Positions 2,174 to 53,691 of a DNA stretch of 56,755 nt are shown here, one piece after another; the stretch's first letter is position 1, and every line of letters begins with the position of its first letter. Origin of the DNA: Gammaproteobacteria bacterium (lineage in GTDB: Bacteria > Pseudomonadota > Gammaproteobacteria > GCA-001735895); assembly GCA_024229615.1 (NCBI GenBank), contig JAAESG010000506.1, positions 1-56,755 of the forward strand. The letters are read 5' to 3'. Position numbers and translations under genes: made by a program. A model generated the notes under the pieces. It was not told the origin of the DNA. It was given only the letters and a program-made list of their open reading frames with translations, and searched no databases.

Positions 2174-4585
2174 TCATGCTCGCATTTTTGACCCGCAGGG
2201 ATCGTACAGAGGTTCGGTCTTAAGCTCCGCCGCGCGTTGTTGCCCGAGGATTTCGATCGCGTATTGCCCTCCTGGTAGATAAGCATCGCAATTTACATAA
2301 CCAAGCGCAATATGCTCGGCGCAACTGGGTCCGAATCCGCCCGAGGTGACATAACCGATGGCTTCGCCATCGAGAAAGATAGCCTCGTCTCCCCATACCG
2401 CACAATCGCCTGCATCGACACTGAAAGTCGCGAATTTTTCGCGTGGTGCTGCGTAGTTCAGAAATGCATCACGACCGATAAAGTCCCCCTTGTCGGGGTT
2501 GACGAAGCGATCCATGTTGGCTTCGACCGCGGTGTAATCGAGCGATAGTTCGAGCGCCCAGGCGGGGAAGCTCTTTTCGAGCCGGGTCTGCATCAGCGCA
2601 CGCGTACCGACGAGGCCGATGCCAAGACTTTCGCCTTCGCGCCGCAGCAGGTCGAACAGCGCCAGTTGCTGCGCCATTGGCAGATACATCTCATAGCCAC
2701 TTTCACCGCTAAACGAGACCCGCAGCACCAGCACCTTGTCCAGATCACCAATTTTCATTTCACCCGCCGACATGAAAGGAAAGCAGGCGCTATCCATGTC
2801 CTGTTGCGCGACACGGCTGATCAGCTCGCGCGCGTTCGGCCCGCAGATATGCAGCCCACCATAGTCGGTGGACAGGTTCGCTAATTGCACCCCGTCGGCG
2901 GGCAGGAATGGTTGCAGGTGGCGCATGAAGGCGAGCTGCATAGTGTCTGCCCCGAGCACCAGGAATCGATCCGAGGCGATGCGCGAAATCGAAAAGTCGC
3001 CTGCAAGTCGTCCCCTGGTCGATAGCATCGGCGATAGCGCCATGCGCCCCTTTTTGGGCAGGCGGTTTGCCATCACATGGTCGAGCCAGGCCTCGGCGCC
3101 CGGTCCTGACACTTCGAATTTGGCCATCGCCGAAAATTCCATCAGACCGACCTCGTTACGGCAGCGTTTACCCTCGTCGATGACCGGCTGCCACCAGTTG
3201 GGCTGGCGATAGGTCAAACTGTCTCTGGCCTCGGTCGCACTCGCTGCAAACCAGTTCGCGTGTTCCTGCCCGAAAGAGCTGCCGAAAACCGCGTGGTTTT
3301 CCTGTAGCCGCGCGTAAACCGCGGGTTTATGGATCGGTCTGCCGATGTCGAATTCCTGGTAGGGGAAGATTTTCTCGGAGCGGTTTTCATAAAAGTAACG
3401 AGTCGTCTTTTCGGTATAGGACTTGTCTGCCCAGTCGCCGAAGCGCGCCACATCCCAGCAGAAGATGTCGATTTCGGGTTCGCCCTGAATCATCCATTCG
3501 GCGAGTACCCGGCCAATACCGGCGCCCTGGTTGAATCCTGCCATGACACCGTTGGCGCAGAAGTAGTTGCGCAGTGCCGGGTGCGGCCCGATCAGCGGTC
3601 CGAGATCGGGTGAAAAAATCATCGGCCCGTTGATGATGCGTTTGATGCCAGCGCTTTCCAGGCAGGGCATGAGCTCGACTGACTTTTCGAAGTTCCAGGC
3701 CATGCGTGACAAGTCCTCGTCGAGCAGTTCGTGCCCGAAATCCAGTGGCGTTCCGTCGACGGCCCAGTGTGTGCAGGTATTTTCATAGGCGCCGAGCAAC
3801 AAACCGAGGCCTTCCTGGCGCGCATAGACACCAGTCTCGTTATCGTTGATCTGCGGCAGTTCGAAAGCAAGGTTCTCTATTTCAGGCATGTTGTCGGTGA
3901 CCAGGTAATGATGCTCCACCGGTACCAGTGGCAGTTCAATGCCGGCCAGGGAGGCGACTTCGCGGCCCCAGAGCCCGGCGGCGTTGACCACGTACTCTGC
4001 ACGGACGGTCCCGTTTTCAGTGAGTACGTCCCAGGAACCGTCGGCGCGTTGCGTGGTCGCTGTTACCGGCGTGTGCCGGTAAATTTCGGCACCAAGCTTG
4101 CGCGCCGCCGCTGCGAAAGCCTGGGTCGCCGATGCCGGGTCGACGTGCCCGCCTTCGTCTTCCCACAGTGCACCGACCATCTGCGTAGTATCGAGAAACG
4201 GCACCTTTTCGCACGCTTCGTCGAGCGAGATGAAATGGCTTTCGATACCGAGCCGTCGGCAGGCGCTTTGCATCATCGCGTTGCTGTCGATTTCATCCTG
4301 GGTACGACAGATATTGATGCCGCCGGTGAAGTGGAAGCCGCAGGACTGGCCGCTTTCCTTTTCGAGCTCGCTGTAAATCTGGAAGGTATAACGGTGGATT
4401 TCGGCCGCGGTATTGGGGCGCGTAATCGTGAATAGCCCACCGGCGGCGTGCCAGCTTGAACCCGATGTCAGCTCCATGCGCTCGATCAGTACTACGTCGG
4501 ACCAGCCATTTTTGGCTAGGTGGTATAACACCGAGCAACCAACTACACCGCCCCCGATCACGACAACCCTTGCACTGGTTCTCAT
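2174..4585 (-). CDS. FAD-dependent oxidoreductase, dimethylglycine dehydrogenase/sarcosine dehydrogenase type
   Basis: This 803-residue protein has two parts. The N-terminal half is a DAO-type flavin oxidoreductase with the dinucleotide motif GGGVVG at about 11-16. It also has SSWHAAGG near residues 43-50, where His46 matches the histidine that carries covalent FAD in dimethylglycine and sarcosine dehydrogenases. The C-terminal half (about 430-790) is a GcvT-like aminomethyltransferase fold, with YGGLHICGPNAREL and SFSGESGYE, which in this family channels formaldehyde to tetrahydrofolate. The expected reaction is oxidative N-demethylation of dimethylglycine to sarcosine, or of a related N-methyl amino acid. 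It overlaps the upstream GntR gene by 4 bases (ATGA), so the two are co-transcribed. The MttB gene follows 155 bases downstream. The family is sure; the exact substrate is inferred from neighbours. Confidence 0.92.
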   Translation of the reverse strand: MRTSARVVVIGGGVVGCSVLYHLAKNGWSDVVLIERMELTSGSSWHAAGGLFTITRPNTAAEIHRYTFQIYSELEKESGQSCGFHFTGGINICRTQDEIDSNAMMQSACRRLGIESHFISLDEACEKVPFLDTTQMVGALWEDEGGHVDPASATQAFAAAARKLGAEIYRHTPVTATTQRADGSWDVLTENGTVRAEYVVNAAGLWGREVASLAGIELPLVPVEHHYLVTDNMPEIENLAFELPQINDNETGVYARQEGLGLLLGAYENTCTHWAVDGTPLDFGHELLDEDLSRMAWNFEKSVELMPCLESAGIKRIINGPMIFSPDLGPLIGPHPALRNYFCANGVMAGFNQGAGIGRVLAEWMIQGEPEIDIFCWDVARFGDWADKSYTEKTTRYFYENRSEKIFPYQEFDIGRPIHKPAVYARLQENHAVFGSSFGQEHANWFAASATEARDSLTYRQPNWWQPVIDEGKRCRNEVGLMEFSAMAKFEVSGPGAEAWLDHVMANRLPKKGRMALSPMLSTRGRLAGDFSISRIASDRFLVLGADTMQLAFMRHLQPFLPADGVQLANLSTDYGGLHICGPNARELISRVAQQDMDSACFPFMSAGEMKIGDLDKVLVLRVSFSGESGYEMYLPMAQQLALFDLLRREGESLGIGLVGTRALMQTRLEKSFPAWALELSLDYTAVEANMDRFVNPDKGDFIGRDAFLNYAAPREKFATFSVDAGDCAVWGDEAIFLDGEAIGYVTSGGFGPSCAEHIALGYVNCDAYLPGGQYAIEILGQQRAAELKTEPLYDPCGSKMRA

Positions 4586-5274
4586 ATTTTCGTTTGCTCC
4601 GTACGGGTATAGGCTGCAAAAGTTGAAACGCCCCAGCTGATATCTTTTTCGATCAGTCGCGCCGCTTTATCGGCATTGCGCGCACGGATAGCCTTGGCGA
4701 TTTCGTTATGCAGCACTTGCCACTCGTCCGGCATGTTCTGGCTGCGCACCACCTGTGCGAGATAGGGCCCGGTCTGCGCCCACAGGCGTTCGATCGACCA
4801 GAACAGTTCTTCGTTCTGGCTCGCCGCGTAAATCGAAAAATGGAAGTTGTAATTGCGTACGATATAGTTTTCGTTACTACCACCCTCGATGTCTACCTCC
4901 ATCATGTGCGCCAGGGTTTCGAGCTCATCGATCTGGGTCGCTGTCAGGTTGGGGACTGCAAGCTCGGTCGCGATCCCTTCGAGCCGGGCGCGCAAAAAGA
5001 ATTGATCGGAAACACGTTTCGAGTCGAGCTCGGCTACCTTGTAGGAGCGTTTCACCGAGGACAGCAGTAAGCGCTCCGAGGCGAGCCGAGTCAGCGCCTC
5101 GCGCACCGGCATTGTGCTGGTACCCATTTTTTTGGCCAGCGAACGAATCGATAGCACGCTGCCGGGAAAGTATTCACCGATGATCAGCGACCACTTGACG
5201 CTCTGGTAAATGCGGTCGTTAAGCGGCGCCTGGGAGACGTTACGGGGCAGTTTATTCTGTCTGGTCTGGGTCAT
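4582..5274 (-). CDS. GntR-family transcriptional regulator, FCD subfamily
   Basis: A 230-residue DNA-binding regulator. The N-terminal winged helix-turn-helix spans about residues 18-85, with the FCD/FadR-type signature LAKKMGTSTMPVREALTRL. The C-terminal helical FCD ligand-binding domain spans about 95-215 and has acidic and histidine residues (NFHFSIYAA, HNEI) typical of metal or carboxylate binding. It sits between soxG and the dimethylglycine-dehydrogenase-like gene and overlaps the latter by 4 bases. It probably controls this operon in response to a carboxylate such as a betaine breakdown product, but the ligand cannot be read from sequence. The gap to soxG is only 63 bases, so it is probably transcribed with the sox genes. 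Confidence 0.93.
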   Translation of the reverse strand: MTQTRQNKLPRNVSQAPLNDRIYQSVKWSLIIGEYFPGSVLSIRSLAKKMGTSTMPVREALTRLASERLLLSSVKRSYKVAELDSKRVSDQFFLRARLEGIATELAVPNLTATQIDELETLAHMMEVDIEGGSNENYIVRNYNFHFSIYAASQNEELFWSIERLWAQTGPYLAQVVRSQNMPDEWQVLHNEIAKAIRARNADKAARLIEKDISWGVSTFAAYTRTEQTKI

Positions 5275-5337: not shown

Positions 5338-5895
5338 TTAGCCCCAGCGTTGCAGCAAGTGCTCGAAATAATCGCAAAACGATTGTGCATAAGAGCGATC
5401 GATGAGGATACGGATGTCGTCGCGTTGGTCCCACCACAGGGTTACCTGGTATTGGCCGAACAGGCAACGCAGGTTGCGGGTTTCATGGATGCGGGTTTGC
5501 ACCGGGTTGGCCGAGCTGTAGCAAGCGAGAAACTCAAACGCCTGCTCGCCGCCGAGACCGAGTTCGCATAAGCCGTGGCTGACATCGGTCAGCATCGATG
5601 AAAACGGGCGCGACGAATCGGGCAATTCGGGTTGTGCACAGAGCAGCAAGGCCTTGTGCGGCCACAAGTGCAGCAAGCGTGTCGAGTCGGCGCCGAGCAT
5701 TTCCCCAAACTCGAGTGCCTCGCCGAAAACCGTTCGTGCGAAGGCGCGCAGATCATGCTTGCGGCTCGCCTGGATTGACCACAGATAACGCGTTTCAATT
5801 TCGTCGAGGGTCAGTCCCGATTTCGAGGTTCGGGACGTGGTGTGGCTGGTCGCCGCCTGTCGGTAAACCAGATCAGCCACGGACTCGACTCCCAT
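5338..5895 (-). CDS. soxG: Sarcosine oxidase gamma subunit (copy 1)
   Basis: About 185 residues, the right size and position for the small gamma subunit of heterotetrameric sarcosine oxidase, last in the order B-D-A-G. Recognisable features are the LVYR start region, TRLLHLWPHKALLLC, the segment around SMLTDVSHGLCELGLGGEQAFEFLA, and the C-terminal RNLRCLFGQY with YAQSFCDYFEHL. The gamma subunit resembles GcvT-type folds and supports complex assembly. The start is uncertain: ATG at 5895 is preferred, while a GTG at 5919 and another near 5871 are possible. All overlap or abut the soxA stop at 5873, which implies translational coupling. It differs strongly from the second gamma subunit at 45070-45690. 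Confidence 0.85.
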   Translation of the reverse strand: MGVESVADLVYRQAATSHTTSRTSKSGLTLDEIETRYLWSIQASRKHDLRAFARTVFGEALEFGEMLGADSTRLLHLWPHKALLLCAQPELPDSSRPFSSMLTDVSHGLCELGLGGEQAFEFLACYSSANPVQTRIHETRNLRCLFGQYQVTLWWDQRDDIRILIDRSYAQSFCDYFEHLLQRWG

Positions 5896-8791
5896 CAGGG
5901 TCGATGAAACAGCTGGCACCGACGACTACCTCGACCGATTGGCGCGTCAATGGTGATACCGCCCAAAGCTTCTCGCCCCAGCGCTGTTGTCCGTTTTCGA
6001 GCAGTGCCAGCGCGATCGAGTACCCCAGTGTCGGGCTTGAAACCGCGGCGCTCATTTTGCCCTGCGAGCGCAGTGATTGACCCGGCTGCCAGGTCTGCTC
6101 GCAGATATGCGCAGCGGGCGGGATCTGGCTTTGCCCGTCGGTGGCCGTCAATCCGACCAGCTGCAAGCGCCCAGCCTGTTGCAACGCCGGACGCTGTAAC
6201 AGGCTGGAACCGATAAATGCCTTGCGTGTGGAAACGAGCTTGCCGAGGCCGAGATCGGCGGGCGTGGTGCGACCATCGATTTCGCTTCCGACCGATAGAT
6301 GCCCTTTTTCGATGCGCAGCACATCTAGCGCTTCGAGGCCATAGGGCGTTATCCCGAATTCGACGCCACCTTCGAGCACACGCTGATACAGCGCCGACGC
6401 AAATCCGGCCGGGACGTTGATTTCATAGCTGAGTTCGCCCGAGAAGCTGACGCTGAAAACGCGGCAATCGATTCCGCCGAGTGAACCCTGTCTGACAGAG
6501 GCATACGGGAAATGCTCACGCTCGACGTCGAAGTCGGGATTAAGCGCGGCCAGCAATGCGCGCGCTTTGGGTCCGGCGATGGCGAGCGAGGCCCAGTGAT
6601 CGGAGACCGAGGTGAGTTGCACATCGAGCGAAGGCCAGCGCAGTTGCGCGAGTTTGTTCATGCTGCGCCACACCGCTGCCGAATTGGCCGTGGTCGTAGT
6701 GACGAGATAGTGCTGCGGACCGAGTTGCGAAACCGTGCCGTCATCGAACAGAATGCCATCTTCGCGCAACATCAGTGCATATCGCAATCGTCCCTGTTCG
6801 AGCCCATCGAGGTTATTACAATAAATGCGTGTCAGGAACTCGAGCGCATCCCCGCCCTTAATATCGATCTTGCCCAGTGTGGACATGTCGACGCAGCCGA
6901 CGGTACTGCGCACCGCGAGAACCTCACGACGAATAGCCTGTTCCATGGATTCATCTGCCAGTGGGAAATAGCGCGAGTAGAGCCAGTCACCCGAGGTCTG
7001 AAACACGCAAGCGGAATCGGCGAAGTCGCGGTGAAAAGGGGTTTGGCGTAACGGCGCCATGTGCCGGTTCACATCGGCACCTACCAGCGCGCCAATGCTG
7101 ACCGGCGAGCAGGGCGGGCGAAACGTGGTATGCCCGAGCATGGAGGATTCCTGCCCGGTGATGCGGGTCATTTCGCGGATCGCGTTGACCCAGCTGGTCT
7201 TGCCCTGATCGGTGCCCATGCCCGTCGTGGTATAGCGCTTGGCCAGTTCGACGTGATCGTAGCCCTCGCTCACAGCCTGTTCGAGGTCTGCACGGGTCAC
7301 ATCGTTCTGCAGATCGACGAAAGCCTGGCCGCGGCCATCGTGAAACACGTCGGATAACACTGGTTTCGATGAGGTCACAGATGCGCATCTCACTATTTCC
7401 GGCAGTTCAATATCGGCCACCGTCTGCTGTTTAATCTGTGCAATTGCCTGTTGCGCCTGCAGTCGTCCGTCGAGCATGCAGTCTTGCATCGCGGACAGGC
7501 CGCGGCAGGCGCCGCTGGTCAGCGTGATCCCGGCCTGGGCCGGGGGTAGCAGGCTGCCTGTGCTCGGCTCGAAATCCAGCTGAGCGCCGAGTTGCGCCAG
7601 CAGCTGGGCGTTCGGGTTCCAGCCCGCGGACACGCACAGCAGGTCGCAGCGAATGCGCCGACCTTGTCCGCTTTTGTTGATCACGCCGACCGCGGACAGG
7701 TGCTGCAAGCCGTAGGTCGCGACGATATGTTCGCCGGGTTGCAGGGTTGCGACGATTTCGATCCCAGCGCTTTCGAGCGCCTCATGGGTCAGACCGGCTT
7801 CGTCGGCATCGGTAATCGCGAGCAATGCACGCCTGCCCGGCACCACTGCGTAGCGGTGGATGTAATGCCTGACGGCCGAGGCGAGCATGATGCCGGGGCG
7901 GTCGTTGGTGGGAAATACCAGTGGGTTTTCAGTCGCACCGGTGGCCAGCAGTAGGCGTTTCGCACGAATCTGCCAGCTGATCGAATCGACGCTGGCGGCA
8001 ACGCGTTGTATCGCCCTGACCTGACCGTGATCGTATTGCCCGAATGCGAGCGTGCCGCACATAATGCGAATGTTGGGCTTTTGAGCTAGCGATGCGAGCG
8101 CCTGCTCACGCCATTGCCGTGCCGGCATGGCGTCGATCTCGCATCGCTCCCACAGTGTCGAGCCACCAGCAACATGGTCCTGTTCGAGCAGCATGATCGA
8201 GATTTCGGCGTTGGTGGCAGGTGCGACCGCGGCCAGTGCTGCGCCGAGACCGGCGGGCCCCGAACCGATGATTAACAGGTCGCAGTGTGCATTGCGCCGG
8301 TCGTAGCGCTTCAAATCGGTGCCGGTCGAGACTCGACCCTGTCCGGCGGCACGGCGGATCAGTTTTTCGTAGACGCGGTGCCACCATTGTTGAGGCCACA
8401 TGAAGGTTTTGTAATAAAAGCCCGCACTCAGCAATGCTGAAACCCGTTGCAGCAGCGCGCCGATGTCGAGCGTGACGTCGGGCCAGCAATTTTGGCTGCG
8501 CGCTTCCAGGCCCTGGGTCAGCTTGACTTCGGTGGCTTTTAAATTGGGGACAAAGACACCATGTTGATCGGCGCAGTTGACCAACGCGTTGGGTTCTTCG
8601 AGACCTGCCGAGAGGATGCCGCGTGGACGATGATAACGGATCGATCTGGCGATCAGGCTCAGGTCGTTGGCGAGCAGCGCGGAGGCCAGGCTATCCCCGG
8701 CGTAACCCTCGTACTGGCGACCGTTAAAGCCGAAATACAATTTTTCGTCACGATCGATGATGCCACCGGATGCGAGTCTACGTTTCTGCAT
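5873..8791 (-). CDS. soxA: Sarcosine oxidase alpha subunit (copy 1)
   Basis: The large subunit of heterotetrameric sarcosine oxidase, 972 residues. It oxidises sarcosine to glycine and passes the methyl group to tetrahydrofolate. Domain order: an N-terminal ferredoxin-like fold (FGFNGRQYEGYAGDSLASALLAND region), an NAD/FAD-type Rossmann domain with IIGSGPAG at about 174-181, and a C-terminal GcvT-like folate-binding region (SFSGELSYEINVPAG; GLEALDVLRIEKGHL). The start at MQKRR is chosen because its ATG overlaps the soxD stop as TGATG; longer frames run back into soxD without reason. It lies between soxD and soxG. Copy 2 (45683-48676) has the same architecture, and its Rossmann motif falls at the same residue numbers. 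Confidence 0.95.
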   Translation of the reverse strand: MQKRRLASGGIIDRDEKLYFGFNGRQYEGYAGDSLASALLANDLSLIARSIRYHRPRGILSAGLEEPNALVNCADQHGVFVPNLKATEVKLTQGLEARSQNCWPDVTLDIGALLQRVSALLSAGFYYKTFMWPQQWWHRVYEKLIRRAAGQGRVSTGTDLKRYDRRNAHCDLLIIGSGPAGLGAALAAVAPATNAEISIMLLEQDHVAGGSTLWERCEIDAMPARQWREQALASLAQKPNIRIMCGTLAFGQYDHGQVRAIQRVAASVDSISWQIRAKRLLLATGATENPLVFPTNDRPGIMLASAVRHYIHRYAVVPGRRALLAITDADEAGLTHEALESAGIEIVATLQPGEHIVATYGLQHLSAVGVINKSGQGRRIRCDLLCVSAGWNPNAQLLAQLGAQLDFEPSTGSLLPPAQAGITLTSGACRGLSAMQDCMLDGRLQAQQAIAQIKQQTVADIELPEIVRCASVTSSKPVLSDVFHDGRGQAFVDLQNDVTRADLEQAVSEGYDHVELAKRYTTTGMGTDQGKTSWVNAIREMTRITGQESSMLGHTTFRPPCSPVSIGALVGADVNRHMAPLRQTPFHRDFADSACVFQTSGDWLYSRYFPLADESMEQAIRREVLAVRSTVGCVDMSTLGKIDIKGGDALEFLTRIYCNNLDGLEQGRLRYALMLREDGILFDDGTVSQLGPQHYLVTTTTANSAAVWRSMNKLAQLRWPSLDVQLTSVSDHWASLAIAGPKARALLAALNPDFDVEREHFPYASVRQGSLGGIDCRVFSVSFSGELSYEINVPAGFASALYQRVLEGGVEFGITPYGLEALDVLRIEKGHLSVGSEIDGRTTPADLGLGKLVSTRKAFIGSSLLQRPALQQAGRLQLVGLTATDGQSQIPPAAHICEQTWQPGQSLRSQGKMSAAVSSPTLGYSIALALLENGQQRWGEKLWAVSPLTRQSVEVVVGASCFIDPDGSRVRG

Positions 8792-9048
8792 CAGGTGTTC
8801 GATTCGTCGCTTGTTAGCCGACTGAATTTGTGCGTGCTCAGGTTGCGCCTGAGTCTGATCCAGCACTCGCAACCGCTGCTGTGATACCAGTATTCGTCGA
8901 TATCTCCCAACGGGTTAGTGCGCAGGTGCAATGCCTCGTGCCATTGCCCGGGCGAGGCATCGAGAACTGGATAAGCGAGCGCGCGTCCGCCATAGTCGAA
9001 TTCGCTCTCGTCTCGCTCACCGCAATTGGGACAGGGGATTAACAGCAT
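8791..9048 (-). CDS. soxD: Sarcosine oxidase delta subunit (copy 1)
   Basis: An 85-residue zinc-binding small subunit. It has CPNCG at residues 6-10, a central aromatic region, and a downstream histidine/cysteine pair (His56 and Cys60 in YHSSGC). This fits the two-Cys, one-His, one-Cys zinc site of characterised delta subunits. Its stop overlaps the soxA start (TGATG), and soxB ends 16 bases upstream. The protein holds the alpha and beta subunits together in the cytoplasmic enzyme. Length and position are typical. Confidence 0.92.
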   Translation of the reverse strand: MLLIPCPNCGERDESEFDYGGRALAYPVLDASPGQWHEALHLRTNPLGDIDEYWYHSSGCECWIRLRRNLSTHKFSRLTSDESNT

Positions 9049-9064
9049 CGCGTCGTCATCCTCG

Positions 9065-10321
9065 TCAGTGCAACCAGGGGTAGGGGCCGATACCGGCGTC
9101 GTCGATCAGCGCACCGCTTTCAAAGCGTTCGAGCGCGAACGGTTGCAGTAGATCCGGAACCGCATTCTGCGCCAGCAGTTGCGCCAGACTCCAGCCGACC
9201 GCGGGCGTCGCCTTGAATCCGGCGTAACCCCAGCCGCAGTTGATGAACAGGTTTTCAACCGCTGTGGCGCCGACGATGGCGTTGCCATCCATCGGAATGT
9301 CGGCGGTACCCGACCAATGGCGCATCAGGCGCAGGTTCGACAGCATCGGGAAGATCTGCTGCGCGCGCGCCAGCGTGTCTTCGATGCGGGCAAAGCTGCC
9401 GCGGCGCGCATACGAACTGTAACCATCGGTCGCGCCCCCGAGCACCAATTCGCCCTTGTCACTTTGGCTGATATAGGACAGACCCGCGTTATAGTTGACG
9501 ACGCTATCCAGTACCGGTTTTACCGGTTCGGTGACCAGGGCTTGCACATTGATCACTTCGAGCGGCAGACTAATGTCCGCGAGCTGCGCCAATTGCGAGG
9601 ATGCGGCTGCGGCACTGATCAAAACCTTGCCAGCCTTAATTTTGCCCTGGGCTGTTCTGACGCCGGTGACTTTGCCGCTGTCGATGTCGAAATCCGTGAC
9701 TGGACAATTTTGCCGGATATGGATGCCGCTCGAACTCGCACCGCGAGCGAAGCCCCAGGCGACCGCATCGTGCCGCACAATGCCACCTTCGGGCTGAAAA
9801 AGGGCGCCACTGACGGGGAAGCGCGCATCCTCGCACAAGCTGATGGCGGGAACTTTTTCGGTGATTTGTTTGCGATTGAGTATCGAGGCCTCGGCACCGC
9901 CAAGCCGCATCGCGTTGGCGCGCAGCATGAAATGCTCGAGCTCGCCATCGGAATGGGCCAGATCGATGTAACCGCGTGGCGAATACATCAGATTGAAGTT
10001 CAATTCCTGGCTCAGTGAATCCCACAGTTGCAGTGCGAAGTTCTTCAGTTCGAAACTCGCTGGCAACAGGTAATCCGAGCGCACGATGGACGTGTTGCGC
10101 GCGGTGTTGCCGCCACCGATCCAGCCACTATCGAGGACTAGCACATCGCTCAGGTCGTGATTGCGAGCGAGGTAAAACGCGGTCGCGAGGCCATGACCGC
10201 CGGCACCGACGATGACGATGTCATAACCCGGGCGAAGTTTTGTTGGTGCCTCGATAATCTGGGGCCAGTGTCGATGGCCGCGTAATGCCTGCTTGAGCAG
10301 TGAGAATGCCGAATACTTCAT
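9065..10321 (-). CDS. soxB: Sarcosine oxidase beta subunit (copy 1)
   Basis: A 418-residue catalytic subunit with a DAO fold. It has the FAD motif IVGAGGHGLATAFYLAR (about 37-53) followed by GGGNTARNTSIVRS. His184, in RHDAVAWG, corresponds to the histidine that binds FMN covalently in heterotetrameric sarcosine oxidases. The C-terminal half has the expected MDGNAIVG and CGWGYAGFKATPA segments. This subunit carries the non-covalent FAD site where sarcosine is oxidised. It is first of the B-D-A-G set and is preceded by a small gene at 10368-10529. Copy 2 is at 48975-50228. Confidence 0.95.
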   Translation of the reverse strand: MKYSAFSLLKQALRGHRHWPQIIEAPTKLRPGYDIVIVGAGGHGLATAFYLARNHDLSDVLVLDSGWIGGGNTARNTSIVRSDYLLPASFELKNFALQLWDSLSQELNFNLMYSPRGYIDLAHSDGELEHFMLRANAMRLGGAEASILNRKQITEKVPAISLCEDARFPVSGALFQPEGGIVRHDAVAWGFARGASSSGIHIRQNCPVTDFDIDSGKVTGVRTAQGKIKAGKVLISAAAASSQLAQLADISLPLEVINVQALVTEPVKPVLDSVVNYNAGLSYISQSDKGELVLGGATDGYSSYARRGSFARIEDTLARAQQIFPMLSNLRLMRHWSGTADIPMDGNAIVGATAVENLFINCGWGYAGFKATPAVGWSLAQLLAQNAVPDLLQPFALERFESGALIDDAGIGPYPWLH

Positions 10322-10367
10322 GCTGTAGTCGAGCGCTTGCTAGCCACGATCTGCACCGCCGATGGCA

Positions 10368-10529
10368 TCAGTTAATCGAAATAACATCGTCGCGCTCCAT
10401 TTCCGCCACAATCATGAACAGGTGGCTGCCGCTACGAATGCACGCACCGTTACGCCGCACCAGGATGGTTCCGGGCCGGTTAAATGACAATTCGAGCGGG
10501 GCGCATTTGATGCTGTCGATTGTTGTCAT
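10368..10529 (-). CDS. Small hypothetical protein, 53 residues
   Basis: A short frame between the thiamine-diphosphate enzyme and soxB, on the same strand as both. It starts MTTIDSIKCAPLEL and ends EMERDDVISIN. A GAGG ribosome-binding site lies about 9 bases before the ATG. There is no signal peptide, membrane segment or known motif; the centre contains RNGACIRSGSHLF. Spacing to both neighbours is short (30 and 46 bases), as in an operon. It may be a small operon-encoded accessory protein. I do not recognise the family, and it could be a chance frame. Confidence 0.5.
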   Translation of the reverse strand: MTTIDSIKCAPLELSFNRPGTILVRRNGACIRSGSHLFMIVAEMERDDVISIN

Positions 10530-10559: not shown

Positions 10560-12161
10560 CTAAACAAGCCAGTTGTCGTTTTCGAATGCGATAATAATGC
10601 TCGGTCCGGCATAGATCATTGCGTTTTTGAGGGCTTGCCTGAAACCTGCATCGCTATTGACTTCGATGCCAGGGCAACCGAATGCCTCGGCAAGCTTGAC
10701 GAAATCGGGTGCTCGCGGGTTGACCCCGATCTCAGGGATACCGCGTTTGATCATGCCGTCGCGAATCATCGCGTAACTGTGGTTGTGCCAGAGGATAATC
10801 GGAATCGAAAGCTCTTCCTCGACCGCGGTCGCGAGCTCGTTGACAGTAAACATGAAGCCGCCGTCGCCGACCAGTGCGAGCACGGTTTTTCGCGGTGCCG
10901 CAAGCTTGGCGCCGATGGCATCGGGCAGGGCGCAGCCGAGCGTGCCGAAACCGGCTGGATAAAACCACGTACGTGGCAGCAAGGTTTTCATCGCTGCGGT
11001 ACCGGTGTAAACCAATTGCGTAATATCGCCCATGATGACGGCGTCGTCAGGGATTTCATCGCGCAGCGCATCGAGCAGGCGAATGTGCTGACGCTCGACC
11101 GCGGTGTAGTCGGACGATTGTTGTGCGCGAACCGTTTCGAGCTGGCTCATGACATCGTTATTTACTGATTTGATCTCGAGATCTTCGAGCGCCATGAGCA
11201 ATTGCCCGCAGGCGGAGCGCGAATCACCCTGGATCGCGATGCTGGCCGGGAACGCGTCGCTGAAGCGTTGCGGATCGATATCGATGCGAATGACCTTGCC
11301 GTTGACTGGCAGGTCATAGATAAAACTGTCGGCTTCGGCGAGCTCGGTGCCGATCGCCAGTACGACCTCGGCCTCGGCCAGGTAAGCCTGTACTGCCGGG
11401 CTGATGATTCCGCCACCGAGGCTGAGTGGATTACTGTCAGCAACGATACCCTTGCCGGCATTGGATGCGATCACTCCGACGTTCAGACGTTCGGCAAGTT
11501 GAGTCACTTCGATGCTCGCATGTTGCGCGCCGCCGCCGACCATCATTACGGTGCGGGCGGAGCTGGCCAGCGATTTTGCGGCATCGTTGATAACCGCACC
11601 GCCTGGAATCGGTAAATCGGGAATTTGGTAAGGCTGCCAATCGTCGTCGACGCGCATTTCCATGACATCGATCGGAATCGCGATATGCACCGGGCGTGGG
11701 CGGCGTGAACGGAATACAGTGAAGGCTTGCGCGATCAGTTCCGGGACCTCGACGGGATCATGCACCATGACGCTAAAGGCCGTGATTGGCCGGGTAATCG
11801 CACATAAATCGGTGGTTTCATGCAAGCGACCCCATCCCTTACCGAGCGAGGGGCTGTCATTGGCGCTCGAAATCACCAGCATCGGGATCGAGTCGGCGTA
11901 GGCCTGGCCGATGCCGGTGGTCGCGTTGGTCACTCCGGGACCGGTGATGATGGTGCACACCCCCGGGTTACCGCTGACGCGCGCATAGCCGTCGGCCATG
12001 AAACTGGCGCCCTGTTCATTGCGAGGCGTTACCGCGCGCACATTGCTTTTTTCGATGCCGCGGTATAACTCGAGCGTATGCTCTCCGGGTATGCCAAAAA
12101 CAGTGGTCACACCGTAGGATTCGAGTAGATGCATGAGTGCTTCACCGCAGGATTTGCTCAT
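10560..12161 (-). CDS. Thiamine-diphosphate-dependent 2-oxoacid decarboxylase, AruI/acetolactate-synthase-like
   Basis: A 533-residue enzyme of the acetolactate synthase superfamily. The N-terminal pyrimidine-binding domain has FGIPG at 22-26 and the catalytic glutamate Glu49 (RNEQGASFMADGYAR), followed by ITGPGVTNA. The C-terminal cofactor domain carries GDGGFMFTVNEL with HNHSY. The overall wording (SCGEALMHLLESYGV, ELYRGIE, GRLHE) is closest to proteins annotated as 5-guanidino-2-oxopentanoate decarboxylase (AruI) of the arginine transaminase route. A divergent HisC-like aminotransferase lies 132 bases away and could supply the 2-oxo acid (inference). It is the first gene of the minus-strand operon leading into soxBDAG. 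Other possible substrates are branched 2-oxo acids. Confidence 0.85.
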   Translation of the reverse strand: MSKSCGEALMHLLESYGVTTVFGIPGEHTLELYRGIEKSNVRAVTPRNEQGASFMADGYARVSGNPGVCTIITGPGVTNATTGIGQAYADSIPMLVISSANDSPSLGKGWGRLHETTDLCAITRPITAFSVMVHDPVEVPELIAQAFTVFRSRRPRPVHIAIPIDVMEMRVDDDWQPYQIPDLPIPGGAVINDAAKSLASSARTVMMVGGGAQHASIEVTQLAERLNVGVIASNAGKGIVADSNPLSLGGGIISPAVQAYLAEAEVVLAIGTELAEADSFIYDLPVNGKVIRIDIDPQRFSDAFPASIAIQGDSRSACGQLLMALEDLEIKSVNNDVMSQLETVRAQQSSDYTAVERQHIRLLDALRDEIPDDAVIMGDITQLVYTGTAAMKTLLPRTWFYPAGFGTLGCALPDAIGAKLAAPRKTVLALVGDGGFMFTVNELATAVEEELSIPIILWHNHSYAMIRDGMIKRGIPEIGVNPRAPDFVKLAEAFGCPGIEVNSDAGFRQALKNAMIYAGPSIIIAFENDNWLV

Positions 12162-12293
12162 AGGTTTTTGTTTCCAGTGGTTTAAAATAGGGATTTTGCG
12201 CCTGAATACCGATGCTACTTTCGAAATTCGCGCTCGTCAATGACTGTGATCACAGTTAGAATAGCAGAAACCGAATATACAGGGCAGAGCGAC
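12162..12293. promoter_or_regulatory. Divergent intergenic region
   Basis: This 132-base gap separates two genes read in opposite directions, the AruI-like decarboxylase and the HisC-like aminotransferase. It must hold the promoters for both the long minus-strand operon and the plus-strand genes. It is somewhat richer in A and T around 12175-12195 and 12235-12260, and contains the palindrome TGTGATCACA at 12245-12254, a possible operator. No promoter boxes can be assigned with confidence. Confidence 0.4.
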
Positions 12294-13382
12294 ATGACCA
12301 TTACACCCAAGGAACCCCTTGCTTCAGTCGATTATTACATGGTCGGGATTTCAAAATTGCCAGGTTGCGACAAGCCGATCAAGCTGTCTTCCAACGAATC
12401 CGCGCTCGGCATGAGCCCCGATGCGATCGCGGCGGCTCAACAGGCCATCCAGGCGAGTCATCTTTATCCCGAGGTCGATACCGAAATGCTTGCCGAGGTG
12501 CTGGCTGAGCGTTACCGGCTCGAACCGTCGCGCATGGCCTTCGGGCCCGGGTCGGACGAGATTCTGGCGCGAGTCGTGAATACCTTTGCCGGACCTGGCG
12601 AGGAGCTCATTCACAGCAAGAATGCTTACATGCAGTTTCCGATCTATGCGATGTTGGCCGGCGCTACCCCGGTCGCAGCGAATGATCGCGACTTCCGCTA
12701 CGACGTCGATACGATACTGTCACGTGTCAACGAACGTACCCGTATCGTGTTGATCGCCAATCCGGACAATCCATCGGGGACCCACCTGTCCGCCGCGGAA
12801 GTGCGTCGTTTGCATGCCGGGCTGCCGGACAACGTGCTGCTGATCATCGACGCGGCTTACGAAGAGTTTGCCGACCAGGACGATTACGAATCGGGTACCC
12901 GGCTGGTACACGAATTTGACAATGTTATCGTTACGCGCACCTTTTCCAAGGTCTACGGCATGGCCGGCTTGCGACTCGGCTGGTGTTACGGCCCGGCGTG
13001 GGCGATCGACATTCTCATCAAGATCGGTCCTTCGTTCCCGGTCAATTCGGCGTCTTTTAGCGCCGGGATTGCCGCGGTCAGGGATGTCGATCATGTCGAT
13101 GCGGTGCTGGCACACAACAAGAAATGGATCACGAAATTCAGCGCCGAATTGGGCGTGATGGGATTGAAAGTCTATCCCAGTCAGACCAACTTTATGTTGG
13201 TCGAGTTTCCGTCCGAGCCCGGTAAAACTGCTGCCGCGGCGAATACATGGCTGAATCGGCATGGCATTATTCCCCGGCAGTTTGCCGTTGAGAGCTTCAA
13301 CAACAAGTTGCGCTTTACCGTCGGTGAAGACGCCGGTATGGAAAAGACCATCGAGGTGCTGACTGAATTCACCAGTGCTTGA
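12294..13382 (+). CDS. PLP aminotransferase, histidinol-phosphate aminotransferase-like
   Basis: A 362-residue fold-type I aminotransferase of the HisC group. Visible landmarks are LSSNESALG near 31-39 (substrate and phosphate region), ANPDNPSGT at 155-163, IDAAYEEF at 185-192, and the Schiff-base lysine Lys219 in TFSKVYGMAGLRLGW. The start at 12294 fits family length; a longer start at 12240 has no better ribosome-binding site. True HisC genes usually sit in histidine operons. Here the neighbours are an AruI-like decarboxylase and a DddP-like M24 gene, so it more likely transaminates a catabolic amino acid such as arginine or a guanidino compound (inference). A DddP-like gene follows after 47 bases. 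Confidence 0.88.
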   Translation: MTITPKEPLASVDYYMVGISKLPGCDKPIKLSSNESALGMSPDAIAAAQQAIQASHLYPEVDTEMLAEVLAERYRLEPSRMAFGPGSDEILARVVNTFAGPGEELIHSKNAYMQFPIYAMLAGATPVAANDRDFRYDVDTILSRVNERTRIVLIANPDNPSGTHLSAAEVRRLHAGLPDNVLLIIDAAYEEFADQDDYESGTRLVHEFDNVIVTRTFSKVYGMAGLRLGWCYGPAWAIDILIKIGPSFPVNSASFSAGIAAVRDVDHVDAVLAHNKKWITKFSAELGVMGLKVYPSQTNFMLVEFPSEPGKTAAAANTWLNRHGIIPRQFAVESFNNKLRFTVGEDAGMEKTIEVLTEFTSA

Positions 13383-13429: not shown

Positions 13430-14665
13430 ATGAGCCCAACCGATAAATTCCATCTCGCACGCAAGACGCCTGCGATGACACTAACCGATTTCGAGCCGAA
13501 CCTGGATATGGATAAACTGTGCCGATATCGGTTGGGCCGGGTGCGTGAAAAATTGGCCGCACAGGATCTGGCAGCTTGTGTACTTTACGATCCGATCAAC
13601 ATCCGTTACGCCACCGGCACCCGCAATATGTCTGTTTACACCATGCACGCCGCTGAACGCTACGCCTTTATCGCGACCGAAGGACCAGTTGTGATGTTTG
13701 ATAGCTATCCTGTCGGTACACCCACAATCGTGGATGAACGCAGGCCCGCGCAAATCTGGTACTACGAAGTGACGCAAGATAAAACCTTCGATGCTTGCCG
13801 GGATTGGGCAGTGGAAATCGCCGACCTGGTGCGCCAGTACGGTGGCGGCAATAACCGACTCGCCATCGATAGAATGGCGACACTCGGATACGGCGCTTTG
13901 CAAAAGCACAAGCTGACGCTCTGCGATGGTGGTAGCGTCATGGAGCAGGCCAGGCTGATCAAATCGACGGAGGAACTCGCCTGCATGAGCGTGGCGGTGG
14001 CTGCCTGCGATGTGGGCATGGCTCGCATGCGCGAAGCCTTGCGGCCGGGTATTACGGAAAATTACCTGTGGTCGATTCTGGCGCAAACCAATATTGAGCT
14101 TGGCGGAGAGTGGCTTGAATGCCGACTGCTGGCCTCTGGTGGGCGCACCAACCCCTGGTACCAGGAAGCCAGCGACAAGCTGATTCGCGGCGGTGACCTG
14201 GTGGCCTTCGATACCGACATGGTCGGTCCTTATGGCTATTGTGCCGATGTATCGCGCACCTTTCATTGTGGACCGAGCAAGCCGACCGTGAGACAAAAGC
14301 AGCTCTATAGGCTGGCCTATGAGCAGGTTCACCATAACCTCGAACTGATCAGACCGGGTGTCACTTTCAGGGAGCTGTCGGACAGGAGCTGGCGCGGACC
14401 GGCCGAATTTGAAGAAAATCGCTATGTTTGCATGGTTCACGGTGTTGGTCTGGTCGATGAGTATCCGGATATTGCTCATCCGCTGGATTGGGATAGCCAT
14501 GGTTACGACGGTGTGATTGAAGAGAACATGGTGTTATGCGTGGAGAGTTATATCGGGCAGACCGGGGACAGTGAAGGCGTCAAGCTGGAAGAGCAGGTTG
14601 TGGTCACTGCCGATGGGATTCAGTCGCTGTCAAGCTTTCCCTTCGAAGAAGATTTGTTGAAATAG
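13430..14665 (+). CDS. DddP-like M24-family enzyme (possible DMSP lyase paralogue)
   Basis: A 411-residue creatinase/aminopeptidase-P fold protein resembling the DMSP lyase DddP at 40458-41801. It keeps YDPINIRYATGTRNMS, LECRLLASGGRTNPWYQE, FDTDMVGPYGYCADVSRT, MVHGVGLVDEYP and the Glu pair in CVESY and KLEEQ. The residues aligning with DddP metal ligands and catalytic Asp are all present: Asp261, Asp263, Asp273, His337, Glu372, Glu387 and Asp343; Tyr332 is kept too. The N-terminus is about 35-40 residues shorter than in DddP, lacking the ERKIDP segment. It may cleave DMSP or a related compound, or be a different M24 hydrolase. A TauD fragment follows. Confidence 0.82.
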   Translation: MSPTDKFHLARKTPAMTLTDFEPNLDMDKLCRYRLGRVREKLAAQDLAACVLYDPINIRYATGTRNMSVYTMHAAERYAFIATEGPVVMFDSYPVGTPTIVDERRPAQIWYYEVTQDKTFDACRDWAVEIADLVRQYGGGNNRLAIDRMATLGYGALQKHKLTLCDGGSVMEQARLIKSTEELACMSVAVAACDVGMARMREALRPGITENYLWSILAQTNIELGGEWLECRLLASGGRTNPWYQEASDKLIRGGDLVAFDTDMVGPYGYCADVSRTFHCGPSKPTVRQKQLYRLAYEQVHHNLELIRPGVTFRELSDRSWRGPAEFEENRYVCMVHGVGLVDEYPDIAHPLDWDSHGYDGVIEENMVLCVESYIGQTGDSEGVKLEEQVVVTADGIQSLSSFPFEEDLLK

Positions 14666-14703: not shown

Positions 14704-15042
14704 TTGGATGAATTGAAGAGAATAATTCCGCTGATGACTCATCCGGTGTTACGCCCCCATGCCGAGATCGGGCGAACCCCGCTCAATGTCAACGAATACT
14801 ATACTTCGCAGATCAATGAACTCTCCGAGGTCGAGAGCGATGGCCTGTCGAGACTGCTGCATCATCACACGCAATTGCCGGATTTCCAGGTGTGTCATAG
14901 TTGGCAAGCCAACGATATCGCCTTCCGGGACAAGCGATGTACCCGGCACTATGCGTCAACTGACCACGCTGTTGCGCACCGGGTCACGAATCGCGAGACA
15001 CTGTTTGCTAACAAACCTTTTTTCAACAAATCCACGGATTGA
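14704..15042 (+). pseudogene. TauD/TfdA-type dioxygenase, C-terminal fragment
   Basis: About 112 codons resemble only the last third of a TauD/TfdA Fe(II)/2-oxoglutarate dioxygenase. The matching parts are MTHPVLRPHAEIGRTPLNVN, LSRLLHHHTQLPDFQVCHSWQ, then DIAFRDKRCTRHYAS, which contains the distal iron histidine region. The N-terminal HxD half is missing, the start codon would be TTG, and the end (TNRETLFANKPFF) has lost the usual HRVTI ending. It lies directly after the DddP-like gene. A functional enzyme is not possible from this fragment. Confidence 0.75.
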
Positions 15043-37680: not shown

Positions 37681-39231
37681 ATGGTCAGATCGAATCGTCG
37701 TCGTTCTCGTAACAGGGCTGCAGAGCCCACCGAGGCGATCCATCAAATAGATCGCAAGATTCTGCGTAATCGTTTTTCGCCGCTGCAACCGCTTGACGAA
37801 GAACAACTCGAATTTATCCACAATGTGTCACTACGAATCGTCGAGGAAGAGGGCATCGAGGTGATGGGCGAGCAGGCCCTCGATTTGTTTCGCAAGGCGG
37901 GTGCCACTGTGGATGAAAACGGTGTGGTGCGTATGGAAAGAGGGCTGTTGCTCGAAACTGTTGCGAAGGCGCCCGAAACCTTTGAAGTCACGCCGCGTAA
38001 TCCCGAACAAACCCTGCATGTGGGCGCTAACGTGATCAACTTTGGACTGGTATCGGGTACACCGAATGTTCACGATAATATCAATGGTCGGCGTGCAGGC
38101 AATTACGAGGATTACAAGAAGCTGATCAGTTTTGGACAGTATTTCAACGTGCTGACTTTCTTTGGTAATCAGGCGACCGCACCTACCGACATGCCGGCGA
38201 ATTCGCGCCATCTGGATACTACCTTCATCAACCTGACGCTTTCCGACAAACCTTTTTTTGCTACCGGAATTGGGGGTGGACGCGCACGCGATGCGATCGA
38301 AATGAGTGCCATCGCGCGCGGCTTGAACTTGGAGGAGATGAAAACCAGGCCCAGCGTTATGACCAATATTAATGTCAATTCTCCGCGTAAACTTGACGAC
38401 TCGATGGCCTATGGTGCGATGCAGATGGCCCTGTTTGGGCAGCCGGTGACGGTAACGCCGTTTACCCTGATGGGTGCGATGACACCTGTGACGATGGCGG
38501 GTGCGCTGGCGCAGCAAAACGCCGAAGCGTTGCTTGGTATCACGTTGTTACAATTGACCAATCCAGGGACTCCGGTGGTTTACGGCGGTTTCACTTCGAA
38601 TGTCGATATGCGCTCGGGTTCACCGGCTTTTGGCACGCCCGAAAACGCGCTCGCCAATATCGCCGGCGGTCAGCTCGCGCGCAGGTATAAGCTGCCTTAT
38701 CGTTCCAGCGCCTGTAATGCGTCGAACGCGGTCGATGCCCAGGCGACCTACGAAACCATGATGTCGCTGTGGAGCGCGGTTATGGGCTATGGCAATCTGA
38801 TTTATCACACCGCCGGCTGGCTTGAGGGTGGGCTGGTCGCGTCGTTCGAGAAACTCGTCATCGATTGTGAAATGTTGCAGCACATGAGCAAAATGCTGGA
38901 GCCGATCAAGATTGATCTCGAGGAAACCGGCCTCGAAGCGATGCGAGAAGTGGGTCCGGGTGGTCATTTCTTCGGTTGCGCGCACACCATGGAACGATAC
39001 AAGAACGCGTTTTACGAGCCATTTATCAGCGACTGGCAAAACAGCGAAAACTGGGCGCTGTCTGGGTCCAGGGATGCCACCACGAGGGCCACCGAACTGT
39101 GGCCGAAAATTCTCGAGGCGTTCGAACCACCGCCGGTCGATCCGGCGATAGAGGAAGAACTTCAGGCTTACATGGCAAAGCGTAAGGAAGAACTGAAGGG
39201 CCAGGAACCCCCCATCGAACCGACTTCGTAG
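37681..39231 (+). CDS. MttB-family (trimethylamine methyltransferase-like) protein 2, non-pyrrolysine
   Basis: A 516-residue MttB superfamily member, clearly related along its length to the product of 486-2018 (shared SPAFGTPE, ARRYKLP-RSS, GGWLEGGL/AGWLEGGL, GPGGHFFG-AHT-ERY, PAIEEELQAYMA-RKEE). No in-frame UAG, so pyrrolysine is not used. Likely to demethylate a quaternary amine, for example glycine betaine, proline betaine, carnitine or stachydrine; the substrate is unknown. It is divergent from the GbdR-like regulator and followed by a decayed gamma-butyrobetaine-hydroxylase-like gene, which hints at carnitine/butyrobetaine (inference). No corrinoid protein gene is adjacent. The basic arginine-rich N-terminus also occurs in copy 1. 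Confidence 0.9.
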   Translation: MVRSNRRRSRNRAAEPTEAIHQIDRKILRNRFSPLQPLDEEQLEFIHNVSLRIVEEEGIEVMGEQALDLFRKAGATVDENGVVRMERGLLLETVAKAPETFEVTPRNPEQTLHVGANVINFGLVSGTPNVHDNINGRRAGNYEDYKKLISFGQYFNVLTFFGNQATAPTDMPANSRHLDTTFINLTLSDKPFFATGIGGGRARDAIEMSAIARGLNLEEMKTRPSVMTNINVNSPRKLDDSMAYGAMQMALFGQPVTVTPFTLMGAMTPVTMAGALAQQNAEALLGITLLQLTNPGTPVVYGGFTSNVDMRSGSPAFGTPENALANIAGGQLARRYKLPYRSSACNASNAVDAQATYETMMSLWSAVMGYGNLIYHTAGWLEGGLVASFEKLVIDCEMLQHMSKMLEPIKIDLEETGLEAMREVGPGGHFFGCAHTMERYKNAFYEPFISDWQNSENWALSGSRDATTRATELWPKILEAFEPPPVDPAIEEELQAYMAKRKEELKGQEPPIEPTS

Positions 39232-40457: not shown

Positions 40458-41801
40458 CTACTTCAACAGTTTCTCTTCGAAGGGGTAGCTGATCAGATTT
40501 TCATAACCGTCTTCGGTGATGAGTACCTGGTCTTCGAGCTTGACGCCTTCTTTACCGTCGACTTCACCGGCATAAACTTCAACACAAATGACCATGCCAG
40601 GCTCGAACACGCCATCATAGCCGTAAGCATCGTAGTCTTCACGATATCGAATCGCAGGGTATTCGTCGCACAAGCCGACGCCGTGCATGACCACGCCGTA
40701 TCGATTAGGAATGCAGTTGTCAGGTAAACGATGTGCCTTTTCGGTAATTTCGCTGAAGTGTACGCCGGGTCCGAGCAACTCCATGTTGGTCATAATGTGT
40801 TCGTAGGACATTTGATATATGCGTTTTTGATCGACGCTGGGTTCAACATCGCCACACAGCCAGGTTCGCGAGATATCGCAGCACATACCATATGTTCCGA
40901 CCATATCGGTATCGAGTGCGAGCAGTTCGCCATCGCTGATGATGCGTGGTCCGGATTCCTGGAACCACGGATTGGTGCGAGGCCCAGAAGAAAAAATTCG
41001 CGTTTCGAGCCACTCGCCACCGCGCTTGATGTTACCGGCATGCAGTACCGACCATATTTCATTCTCACTCTTGCCGGCTTCGATAGCATCCTGCATTTCG
41101 TACATTGCGGCTTCACAGGCCGCTATCGCACAGCGCATTGCTTTGATTTCATCGGGTCCCTTGATAACCCGCGCTTCCTCGGTGACTGCCTGTCCTTCGA
41201 ACACCTCGAGGCCAATTTTTTCGAGGGCTCGCAGGCCTGCTATCTCGATTTTATCGACGGCGATGCGCCGATTCTCACCTGCATGAGTACGCATTAACTC
41301 GTCGATGGACTGAGCAAAGTTGTTGGCGTGTTCCTCGCCACGGTGCGCGGATTCAAAGTAAAAAAATGAAGCTCCGCTGCGCAATTCCCTGACCAGAGGT
41401 AAGTGATCGGACAGATGGTCACAGCTGTGGAAATCGAACAGCACCATATAGCCATCGGCCGACACGAAACAGGCGCGTGCCGGATTGTGGGTAATCCATA
41501 ACTGCATGTTGGTCGAATCGGTGGCGTAGCGAATATTCAGCGGATCGAACAACACGATGCCACCATAATCGTTTTTCTGCAATTCCTGCACCAGGCGTTG
41601 TAAGCGGAATTCGCGCATCGTATCCAACTGCGGGCATTCCAGCCCTAGAGCCTCCCATTCGGCAAAAGCAAGTGCTGTCGGTCCAATTTCTACGCGATCG
41701 TTATTGTCCGGCGAACCGTCGGGCTTTAACGCGTATTCGGGCTTACGAGCGGGATCGATTTTACGCTCGGAAGGATCTATGGAGTAGGGCGATGCGGCCA
41801 T
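40458..41801 (-). CDS. dddP: DMSP lyase DddP
   Basis: A 447-residue M24-fold lyase that splits dimethylsulfoniopropionate into dimethyl sulfide and acrylate, using iron. The sequence follows the Roseobacter enzymes closely: ERKIDPARK, NNDRVEIGPTALAFAEW, FDPLNIRYATDSTNMQLW, SSGPRTNPWFQESGPRII. The metal ligands are Asp297, Asp299, Asp309, His373, Glu408 and Glu423, with catalytic Asp379 and Tyr368. Each is exactly two positions later than I recall for Ruegeria lacuscaerulensis DddP (295, 297, 307, 371, 406, 421; Asp377; Tyr366). The start at MAASPYSIDP follows CGGAG by 9 bases. It lies between two decayed oxygenase genes. No acrylate-use gene is beside it. Confidence 0.93.
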   Translation of the reverse strand: MAASPYSIDPSERKIDPARKPEYALKPDGSPDNNDRVEIGPTALAFAEWEALGLECPQLDTMREFRLQRLVQELQKNDYGGIVLFDPLNIRYATDSTNMQLWITHNPARACFVSADGYMVLFDFHSCDHLSDHLPLVRELRSGASFFYFESAHRGEEHANNFAQSIDELMRTHAGENRRIAVDKIEIAGLRALEKIGLEVFEGQAVTEEARVIKGPDEIKAMRCAIAACEAAMYEMQDAIEAGKSENEIWSVLHAGNIKRGGEWLETRIFSSGPRTNPWFQESGPRIISDGELLALDTDMVGTYGMCCDISRTWLCGDVEPSVDQKRIYQMSYEHIMTNMELLGPGVHFSEITEKAHRLPDNCIPNRYGVVMHGVGLCDEYPAIRYREDYDAYGYDGVFEPGMVICVEVYAGEVDGKEGVKLEDQVLITEDGYENLISYPFEEKLLK

Positions 41802-41972
41802 TAAACGGATCTCCGGGTGCCTGATTTGGCGCAAGCATAAGTCAATTTCTCAATGGTGATAAGTTGTTTTTTGTCACCACAAGAAAATACCGATTGTCGC
41901 AGATTACCAGGTGTAGAGTGTCATCTGTTGTAGGCATTTTATGGAGGTAGTGGTGAGTGTATCTAAACCCGC

Positions 41973-50959: not shown

Positions 50960-51144
50960 GTTACTGGCACCTGGGCTGGTTTTTGTTTCGGCAATTATAA
51001 CTTGCCGAGGATAACGGCGAACGATAAAATTGCGAGCCGCTGGGCAGCGATGGCGTCGCCGCCTGTAAAGCAGATATTTTATCCTGTACGCCCGGATTAA
51101 CAGCCGGGTTTATTGATTGCCCGGATATTTTCGGAGTGATTATC

Positions 51145-52362: not shown

Positions 52363-52406
52363 GCCGGCAAATAGTTCGAATTAGTCGCAGCTGATACCGA
52401 TGAATC

Positions 52407-52435
52407 ATTGCCGCTTGCGCGCAAGCGGCAATTTT
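52407..52435 (+). terminator. Rho-independent terminator after creatinase
   Basis: ATTGCCGCTTG, loop CGCG, CAAGCGGCAAT, then TTT: an 11-base-pair perfect stem starting about 45 bases past the creatinase stop and 86 bases before the next gene. It separates creatinase from the acyl-CoA dehydrogenase operon. Confidence 0.75.
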
Positions 52436-52520
52436 GCGAATCACGAAGCTCGTAAGAGATTCCCGCCGGGTCGCTGAGTCCGGCGCGGCAAAGACTGGAA
52501 ATGTTAACGGAGAAAGTCAG

Positions 52521-53678: not shown

Positions 53679-53691
53679 GCTATCCATTACT

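Follow-up and report, generated by a model that had tools for sequence, protein, structure and literature searches.

A DddP-superfamily M24 enzyme without the DddP N-terminal appendix, encoded beside a methylated-amine gene cluster in a gammaproteobacterium

Does a protein that keeps every catalytic residue of DddP also do what DddP does? The question is raised by P0001, an ORF at positions 13430-14665 (+) of a 56,755-nt stretch of gammaproteobacterial DNA (the window, by which we mean the whole stretch analysed), which runs from ATG to stop and encodes 411 aa. DddP cleaves the marine sulfur compound DMSP to DMS and acrylate. Among bacterial DMSP lyase genes in the ocean it is reportedly the most abundant, accounting for ~65% of the ddd genes counted in one Tara survey (PMC10686828), and a trench study predicted it in 43% of its MAGs (PMC7494906). 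An earlier note on this DNA described P0001 as a second DddP-like protein, either a new subgroup acting on a DMSP analogue or an M24 hydrolase on the way to DddP. "Second" undercounts, as the genome has six family members. Two of these, at window positions 40458-41834 (-; 631 bits) and on contig C15 (654 bits), are DddP by the NCBI cut-off, and the other four, P0001 included, score 278-344 bits and fall below it. The analysis reported here places P0001 in a large uncharacterised group of DddP relatives in the M24 fold, and not in DddP proper; fold and active site are both of a known type, the variant itself is uncharacterised, and it matters in practice mainly for annotation.

P0001 has a Creatinase_N-type N-domain and an M24 domain (Pfam), that is, a creatinase-like N-domain followed by a pita-bread catalytic domain. 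In DddP an N-terminal loop-helix appendix is formed by RdDddP residues 10-50 (PMC4108388). This appendix is absent from P0001, in which ~25 residues lie ahead of the first N-domain helix, residues 1-21 are predicted to be disordered, and the structural alignment begins at chain residue 36. The short N-terminus is genuine, because an in-frame stop lies ~10 codons 5' of the ATG and because an orthologue, L076 from the Rhodospirillales MAG OFTM118 (73% identity), has the same N-terminal motif, DKFHxARKxPxxTLTD. The same two observations rule out a DddP with a wrongly called start, and they bear out the earlier description of a shorter protein without the ERKIDP segment. Between P0001 and L076, 44.5% of third codon positions are the same, against 80-84% of first and second positions, with dN ~0.20 and dS saturated, which indicates that P0001 is under purifying selection and rules out a pseudogene. 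An active-site-dead paralogue is likewise ruled out, since every ligand is present.

The best match to P0001, by far, is the NCBIfam DddP model NF043017 (343.6 bits, E 1.5e-102), and the equivalog cut-off of 600 is missed. Against PDB entry 4b28 the E-value is 3e-82, whereas the prolidases begin at ~1e-15, so that the similarity to DddP is far beyond chance. Scores against the DoeA models are 31-51 bits (cut-offs 575-613), and against creatinase 57 bits. Quick trees with SH-aLRT support and AU tests were built from 77 sequences and rerun on 72 without the distant M24 outgroup. Both trees put the two genomic DddPs with RlDddP and RdDddP in one ten-member clade (SH-aLRT 99-100), itself nested in a clade of 20 (97-98) that corresponds to the N-terminally extended set, one row of which, L099, lacks the appendix Trp. 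The extended clade also includes non-DddP members, found in MttB-DMGDH operons. P0001 pairs with L076 (99-100) outside both the ten and the 20. Forcing the pair into the DddP ten was rejected by the AU test (p=0.005), and joining it to the extended 20 was disfavoured, though not rejected (p-AU 0.067). The tree that the earlier note had called for thus upholds a separate subgroup, below the NCBI cut-off and outside the DddP clade. The genome's own M24 peptidases are split from the DddP-like family by a long branch (SH-aLRT 99; the outgroup rows are long-branched), so a firm placement among prolidases was not what we found. The proposal that P0001 is on the way to DddP did not hold, since the P0001-L076 pair is not sister to DddP and the appendix marks a 20-row clade that takes in non-DddP members. 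Across the superfamily, then, a short N-terminus is the usual state, and the appendix belongs to a single clade; P0001 lies outside that clade and is not a truncated DddP.

Residue equivalences were numbered on RlDddP, and conservation was counted in 141 fetched family sequences. By alignment P0001 keeps all six ligands of the DddP binuclear centre: Asp261 and Asp263 (RlDddP 295 and 297; motif FDTD, 14210-14218), Asp273 (307; 14246-14248), His337 (371; 14438-14440), Glu372 (406; 14543-14545) and Glu387 (421; 14588-14590), all on the + strand. Tyr366 of RlDddP is present as Tyr332 (14423-14425, +), and the catalytic base Asp377 as Asp343 (14456-14458, +). The eight residues listed in the earlier note therefore all map onto RlDddP as it had said, and its statement that P0001 retains all catalytic residues is true; retention is not distinctive, since nearly all 141 family sequences keep them. 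Each of the six ligands is conserved in 140-141 of the 141, the single exception being at 297; Tyr366 is found in every one, and Asp377 in 127. Near-invariance on this scale means that the ligands, Tyr366 and Asp377 mark the DddP-like superfamily and not DddP. P0001 has the full superfamily set, namely the DxD...D...H...E...E ligands, the Tyr and Asp, and the GGEW and RTNPW motifs. Compared with a solved prolidase (1pv9), Asp343 replaces the conserved second His of the motif GHGxGxxxHExP, and D-x-D replaces D-x-G. A position that does vary is Trp95, which is Trp in 117 of the 141 sequences and Tyr in both P0001 (Tyr70; 13637-13639, +) and L076. A review states that the sulfur of DMSP is held by a tryptophan and a tyrosine in DddP, with no residue number given (PMC5395565); the sulfonium-binding tryptophan would be Trp95, in the N-domain loop STNMQLW, which would put Tyr70 in the substrate pocket. 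In a separate subclade, found in Sinorhizobium, Bacillaceae and others, Asp377 is changed to Gly with all ligands kept (L047, L066, L067, L068, L072, L075, L089, L090, L092, L094, L096 and L105), and this subclade probably runs a different chemistry.

An AlphaFold2 model of P0001, made with a 39-sequence alignment, has a mean pLDDT of 90.1. The four DddP entries (RlDddP 4rzy, 4s00 and 4s01; RdDddP 4b28) ranked first with Foldseek (TM-score 0.90, rmsd 1.6-1.8) and again with VIA-align (Z 49, rmsd 2.0 over 397 residues), with prolidases at Z ~35 or less, DoeA at 34 and creatinase at 33.7. The ligands all lie in confidently predicted, aligned segments of the metal-free model; as far as fold and aligned ligands go, the model does not show the missing metal geometry that the earlier note had named as a refuting result. 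P0001 and DddP thus share the two-domain M24 fold, the six ligands and the Tyr366 and Asp377 equivalents, at ~34-36% identity in the structural alignment. They differ in the appendix, the Trp95 position, clade, NCBI score and gene neighbours. Creatinase and DoeA have the same fold and also act on small osmolyte-like molecules, but they are only 16-19% identical to P0001 and far less similar in sequence. Prolidase and aminopeptidase P (M24B) share the fold and most of the DddP metal ligands, and differ in having His at the Asp343 position and, in the prolidase shown, Gly at that of Asp263. Other close proteins are uncharacterised ones named "Xaa-Pro peptidase family", encoded next to Rieske, MttB and betaine-transport genes in Pseudomonas sp. 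MPC6, Sinorhizobium, Rhizobium and Caballeronia, and present also in Kiloniellaceae, which are 45-57% identical to P0001 and have nearly the same residue set and a short N-terminus, but have other gene partners and, in some subclades, the Asp377 to Gly change.

The neighbours of P0001 handle methylated amines, as judged by family matches. Reading toward P0001, the minus strand carries genes for an MttB-family (quaternary) amine methyltransferase (486-2084), a dimethylglycine-dehydrogenase-like (DMGDH-like) FAD and GcvT protein (2174-4585), a GntR regulator (4582-5274), a 193-aa ORF without family match that adjoins SoxA (5338-5919; 36-41% identical to its homologues in congener clusters), sarcosine oxidase alpha-type (SoxA, 5873-8872) and beta-type (SoxB, 9065-10321) subunits, and an AruI-like thiamine-diphosphate decarboxylase of the 5-guanidino-2-oxopentanoate decarboxylase subfamily (10560-12161; NF005712, 603 bits, cut-off 500). 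Divergent from the last is a HisC-like aminotransferase gene (12240-13382, +; TIGR01141, 251.8 bits, cut-off 276.6), which ends 47 bp upstream of P0001 and is probably co-transcribed with it. The HisC-like and AruI-like neighbours named earlier are thus confirmed, and the cluster is without DMSP genes. Downstream, the ORF at 14704-15042 (+) proved by sequence comparison to be the C-terminal third of a TauD/TfdA dioxygenase; it is a remnant that resembles the TauD of L120 and not that of L076, and so is ruled out as the kind of partner dioxygenase that L076 has.

The cluster occurs in congeners without P0001. The congener G011 has it in synteny, with identities of 57-85% (41% for the 193-aa ORF), HisC included and no M24 gene in it; G024 matches this up to the end of its contig. 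The AruI-HisC pair is present in G004, and G027 has MttB to AruI without GntR and HisC. The HisC-like gene adjoins the AruI-like gene in three congeners as well as here. A search of 30 congeners for a P0001 orthologue gave no full-length match above 50% identity and one partial match at 53%. Because congeners carry the cluster without P0001, P0001 was either added to an existing methylated-amine cluster or uniquely kept beside it, that is, gained here or lost by the congeners. In L076 the orthologue is followed by genes for a DDAH/arginine-deiminase-family protein and a TauD protein, and HisC and AruI are absent from its 9.8-kb contig. In G011, a DDAH-like protein 58% identical to that of L076 is encoded two positions past HisC, following a GlcD-like oxidase gene. 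The order of the genes and the names of their families suggest that MttB, the DMGDH-like protein and SoxAB would strip N-methyl groups, and the AruI subfamily together with the DDAH-like link hints at a guanidino or arginine-like compound as substrate.

The wider family was surveyed by a scan of genome contigs, which gave 80 named relatives with flanks; 99 neighbourhoods, with mechanical gene calls, were examined in all. MttB was found in 34 of the 99 and DMGDH-like genes in 33. With 22 Mesorhizobium-type loci removed (~77 left), there were 12 with MttB, 11 with DMGDH-like genes and 10 with betaine-type ABC transporters. Part of these neighbourhood counts comes from the N-terminally extended clade and not from P0001's own branch. 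Annotated plasmid loci placed Rieske oxygenases, 4-hydroxyproline epimerase, a glycine betaine ABC transporter, sarcosine oxidase and MttB near family members. The link to amine genes is not universal, since in Kiloniellaceae, the nearest larger group to P0001 by path length, the gene sits among housekeeping genes. A conserved HisC-M24 pair was sought in the 99 neighbourhoods and found in none. Other arrangements turned up in the survey. In L042 (8011-8895), L053 (1520-2335) and L079 (7014-7898) the gene immediately preceding the M24 gene, on its upstream side, encodes a HalD-like 2-oxoglutarate/Fe oxygenase; Pseudomonas MPC6, P. taeanensis and several congeners show this order. In an alphaproteobacterial MAG a tandem pair of DddP-like genes lies beside MttB (L095, ~7745-10500).

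What, then, might P0001 do? The reading that we favour, with about as much conviction as reserve, is that it is a DddP-superfamily enzyme that cleaves the C-N bond of a betaine or of an N-methylated, possibly guanidino, amino-acid derivative. By analogy with DddP (PMC4108388, PMC5395565), two iron-like metal ions held by D261, D263, D273, H337, E372 and E387 would bind a small zwitterion through its carboxylate. Asp343, aided by Tyr332, would take the proton alpha to the carboxylate, after which the bond between the beta carbon and a substituted ammonium (or sulfonium) would break and the beta substituent leave. In DddP the leaving substituent is dimethyl sulfide (PMC4108388, PMC5395565); because the neighbours of P0001 handle N-methyl compounds, an amine is the more likely leaving group here. 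Metal-activated hydrolysis of the C-N bond would be an alternative chemistry. MttB, the DMGDH-like protein, SoxAB, the HisC-like aminotransferase and the AruI-like decarboxylase would process the substrate alongside P0001. In this scheme the metal site and residues come from alignment and model, and the substrate, direction and products we infer. The earlier idea of a new subgroup acting on a DMSP analogue thus stands as to a separate, non-prolidase subgroup, and its substrate half fits the methylated-amine neighbourhood, as predicted from genes. Counting against the favoured reading is that the adjacency of P0001 to HisC and AruI is found in this genome only. A broader version, which we think rather improbable, is that the whole DddP-like family, the DddP branch included, is rooted in nitrogen-betaine breakdown by metal-dependent C-N lyases, with DMSP lyase activity later or secondary and P0001 an amine lyase with a new substrate, possibly methylated arginine-like.

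The organism may instead have in P0001 a third DMSP (or DMSOP) lyase, a divergent DddP without the appendix. The known catalytic residues are all in P0001 and its fold is closest to DddP; further, the DddPs listed as confirmed in function include a fungal one with just 32% identity to RdDddP (PMC4108388), so an identity of 34-44% is compatible with DMSP lyase activity. This reading is nonetheless unlikely, given that P0001 scores 257 bits under the NCBI DddP cut-off, is rejected from the DddP core clade by the AU test, has Tyr at the Trp95 position, and sits in a cluster without DMSP genes in a genome that already has two true DddPs. From the sequence, DMSP cleavage as the main role of P0001 is unlikely, and since DddP proper is encoded by two other genes, P0001 is probably not the lyase on which the organism chiefly relies for DMSP.

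M24 proteins include hydrolases of creatine and ectoine, and P0001 could be a guanidino or amidine hydrolase like creatinase or DoeA that feeds sarcosine-type products to SoxAB. The nearby sarcosine oxidase subunits speak for such a role, as do the AruI-like and DDAH-like partners, both from families of guanidino-group enzymes. Against it, creatinase and DoeA are far more distant from P0001 in fold and sequence than DddP is (Z 34 vs 49), and the second His of M24 hydrolases is Asp343 in P0001 in the alignment to Pfu prolidase; we give a hydrolase of this kind only a modest chance. Least probable, and improbable by a wide measure, is an ordinary Xaa-Pro peptidase. That is how automatic annotation names the relatives in plasmid records ("Xaa-Pro peptidase family protein"), and the Pfam M24 and Creatinase_N domains agree with the name. 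The long branch to the genome's own M24 peptidases (SH-aLRT 99) and the prolidase-motif changes of His to Asp and D-x-G to D-x-D do not, and RlDddP, with the same residues, is without measurable Val-Pro activity (PMC5395565).

The placement of P0001 has a consequence for DMSP-lyase counts. At least one survey identified DddP by an HMM cut-off of 1E-30 plus a key-residue check (PMC8520302), and such a filter would count P0001 and its relatives as DddP, because they score far beyond that threshold (E 1.5e-102 for P0001) and keep every catalytic residue. In the genus there are ~98 family genes at E 1e-60 or better, of which 46 are DddP-type at 1e-150 and ~52 of the 98 are outside the DddP type. 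If the non-DddP-type proteins do not cleave DMSP, about half of the genus's DddP-like genes would be miscounted, and similarity-based counts of DMSP-degrading bacteria may be too high. The DMSP-lyase census would, if this is true, need a stricter test, e.g., clade placement, the N-terminal appendix or the Trp95 position. An amine-lyase activity, if true, would be a new enzyme class for betaine breakdown and would bear on DddP's only-millimolar DMSP binding.

The rest of the genome holds further genes of these kinds. It has 18 MttB-family genes in 5.2 Mb, and congeners have 4 to 17 each; the genus is one of methylated-amine specialists, and with 18 such genes an MttB gene near any other gene is less surprising here. 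In the window, a GbdR-like regulator gene and an MttB-family gene (37681-39231) are convergent with the true DddP gene (40458-41834), and nine congeners have an MttB gene within ~340 bp of the DddP orthologue; here, therefore, DddP proper too is linked with a methyltransferase of the methylamine type. The second true DddP gene, on contig C15, follows a same-strand DMGDH-like gene at a distance of 2-3 bp (L049, 2087-5841), which again connects DddP with N-demethylation. Among the paralogues, one has Asp297 changed to Gly and ends a LysR-MttB-DMGDH-M24 gene run (L050, 8028-9323, contig C384), one has Asp377 changed to Val (L051, 415-1743, contig C517), and one directly follows the gene for a GntG-family PLP aldolase (417 bits, cut-off 230; L048, 3667-5931, contig C114). 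Elsewhere in the window are a second sarcosine oxidase set apart from that beside P0001 (45070-50228; SoxG, with SoxA and SoxB above cut-off) and, at 51136-54861, a third M24 gene, prolidase/ectoine-hydrolase-like, followed by acyl-CoA dehydrogenase and class III CoA-transferase genes.
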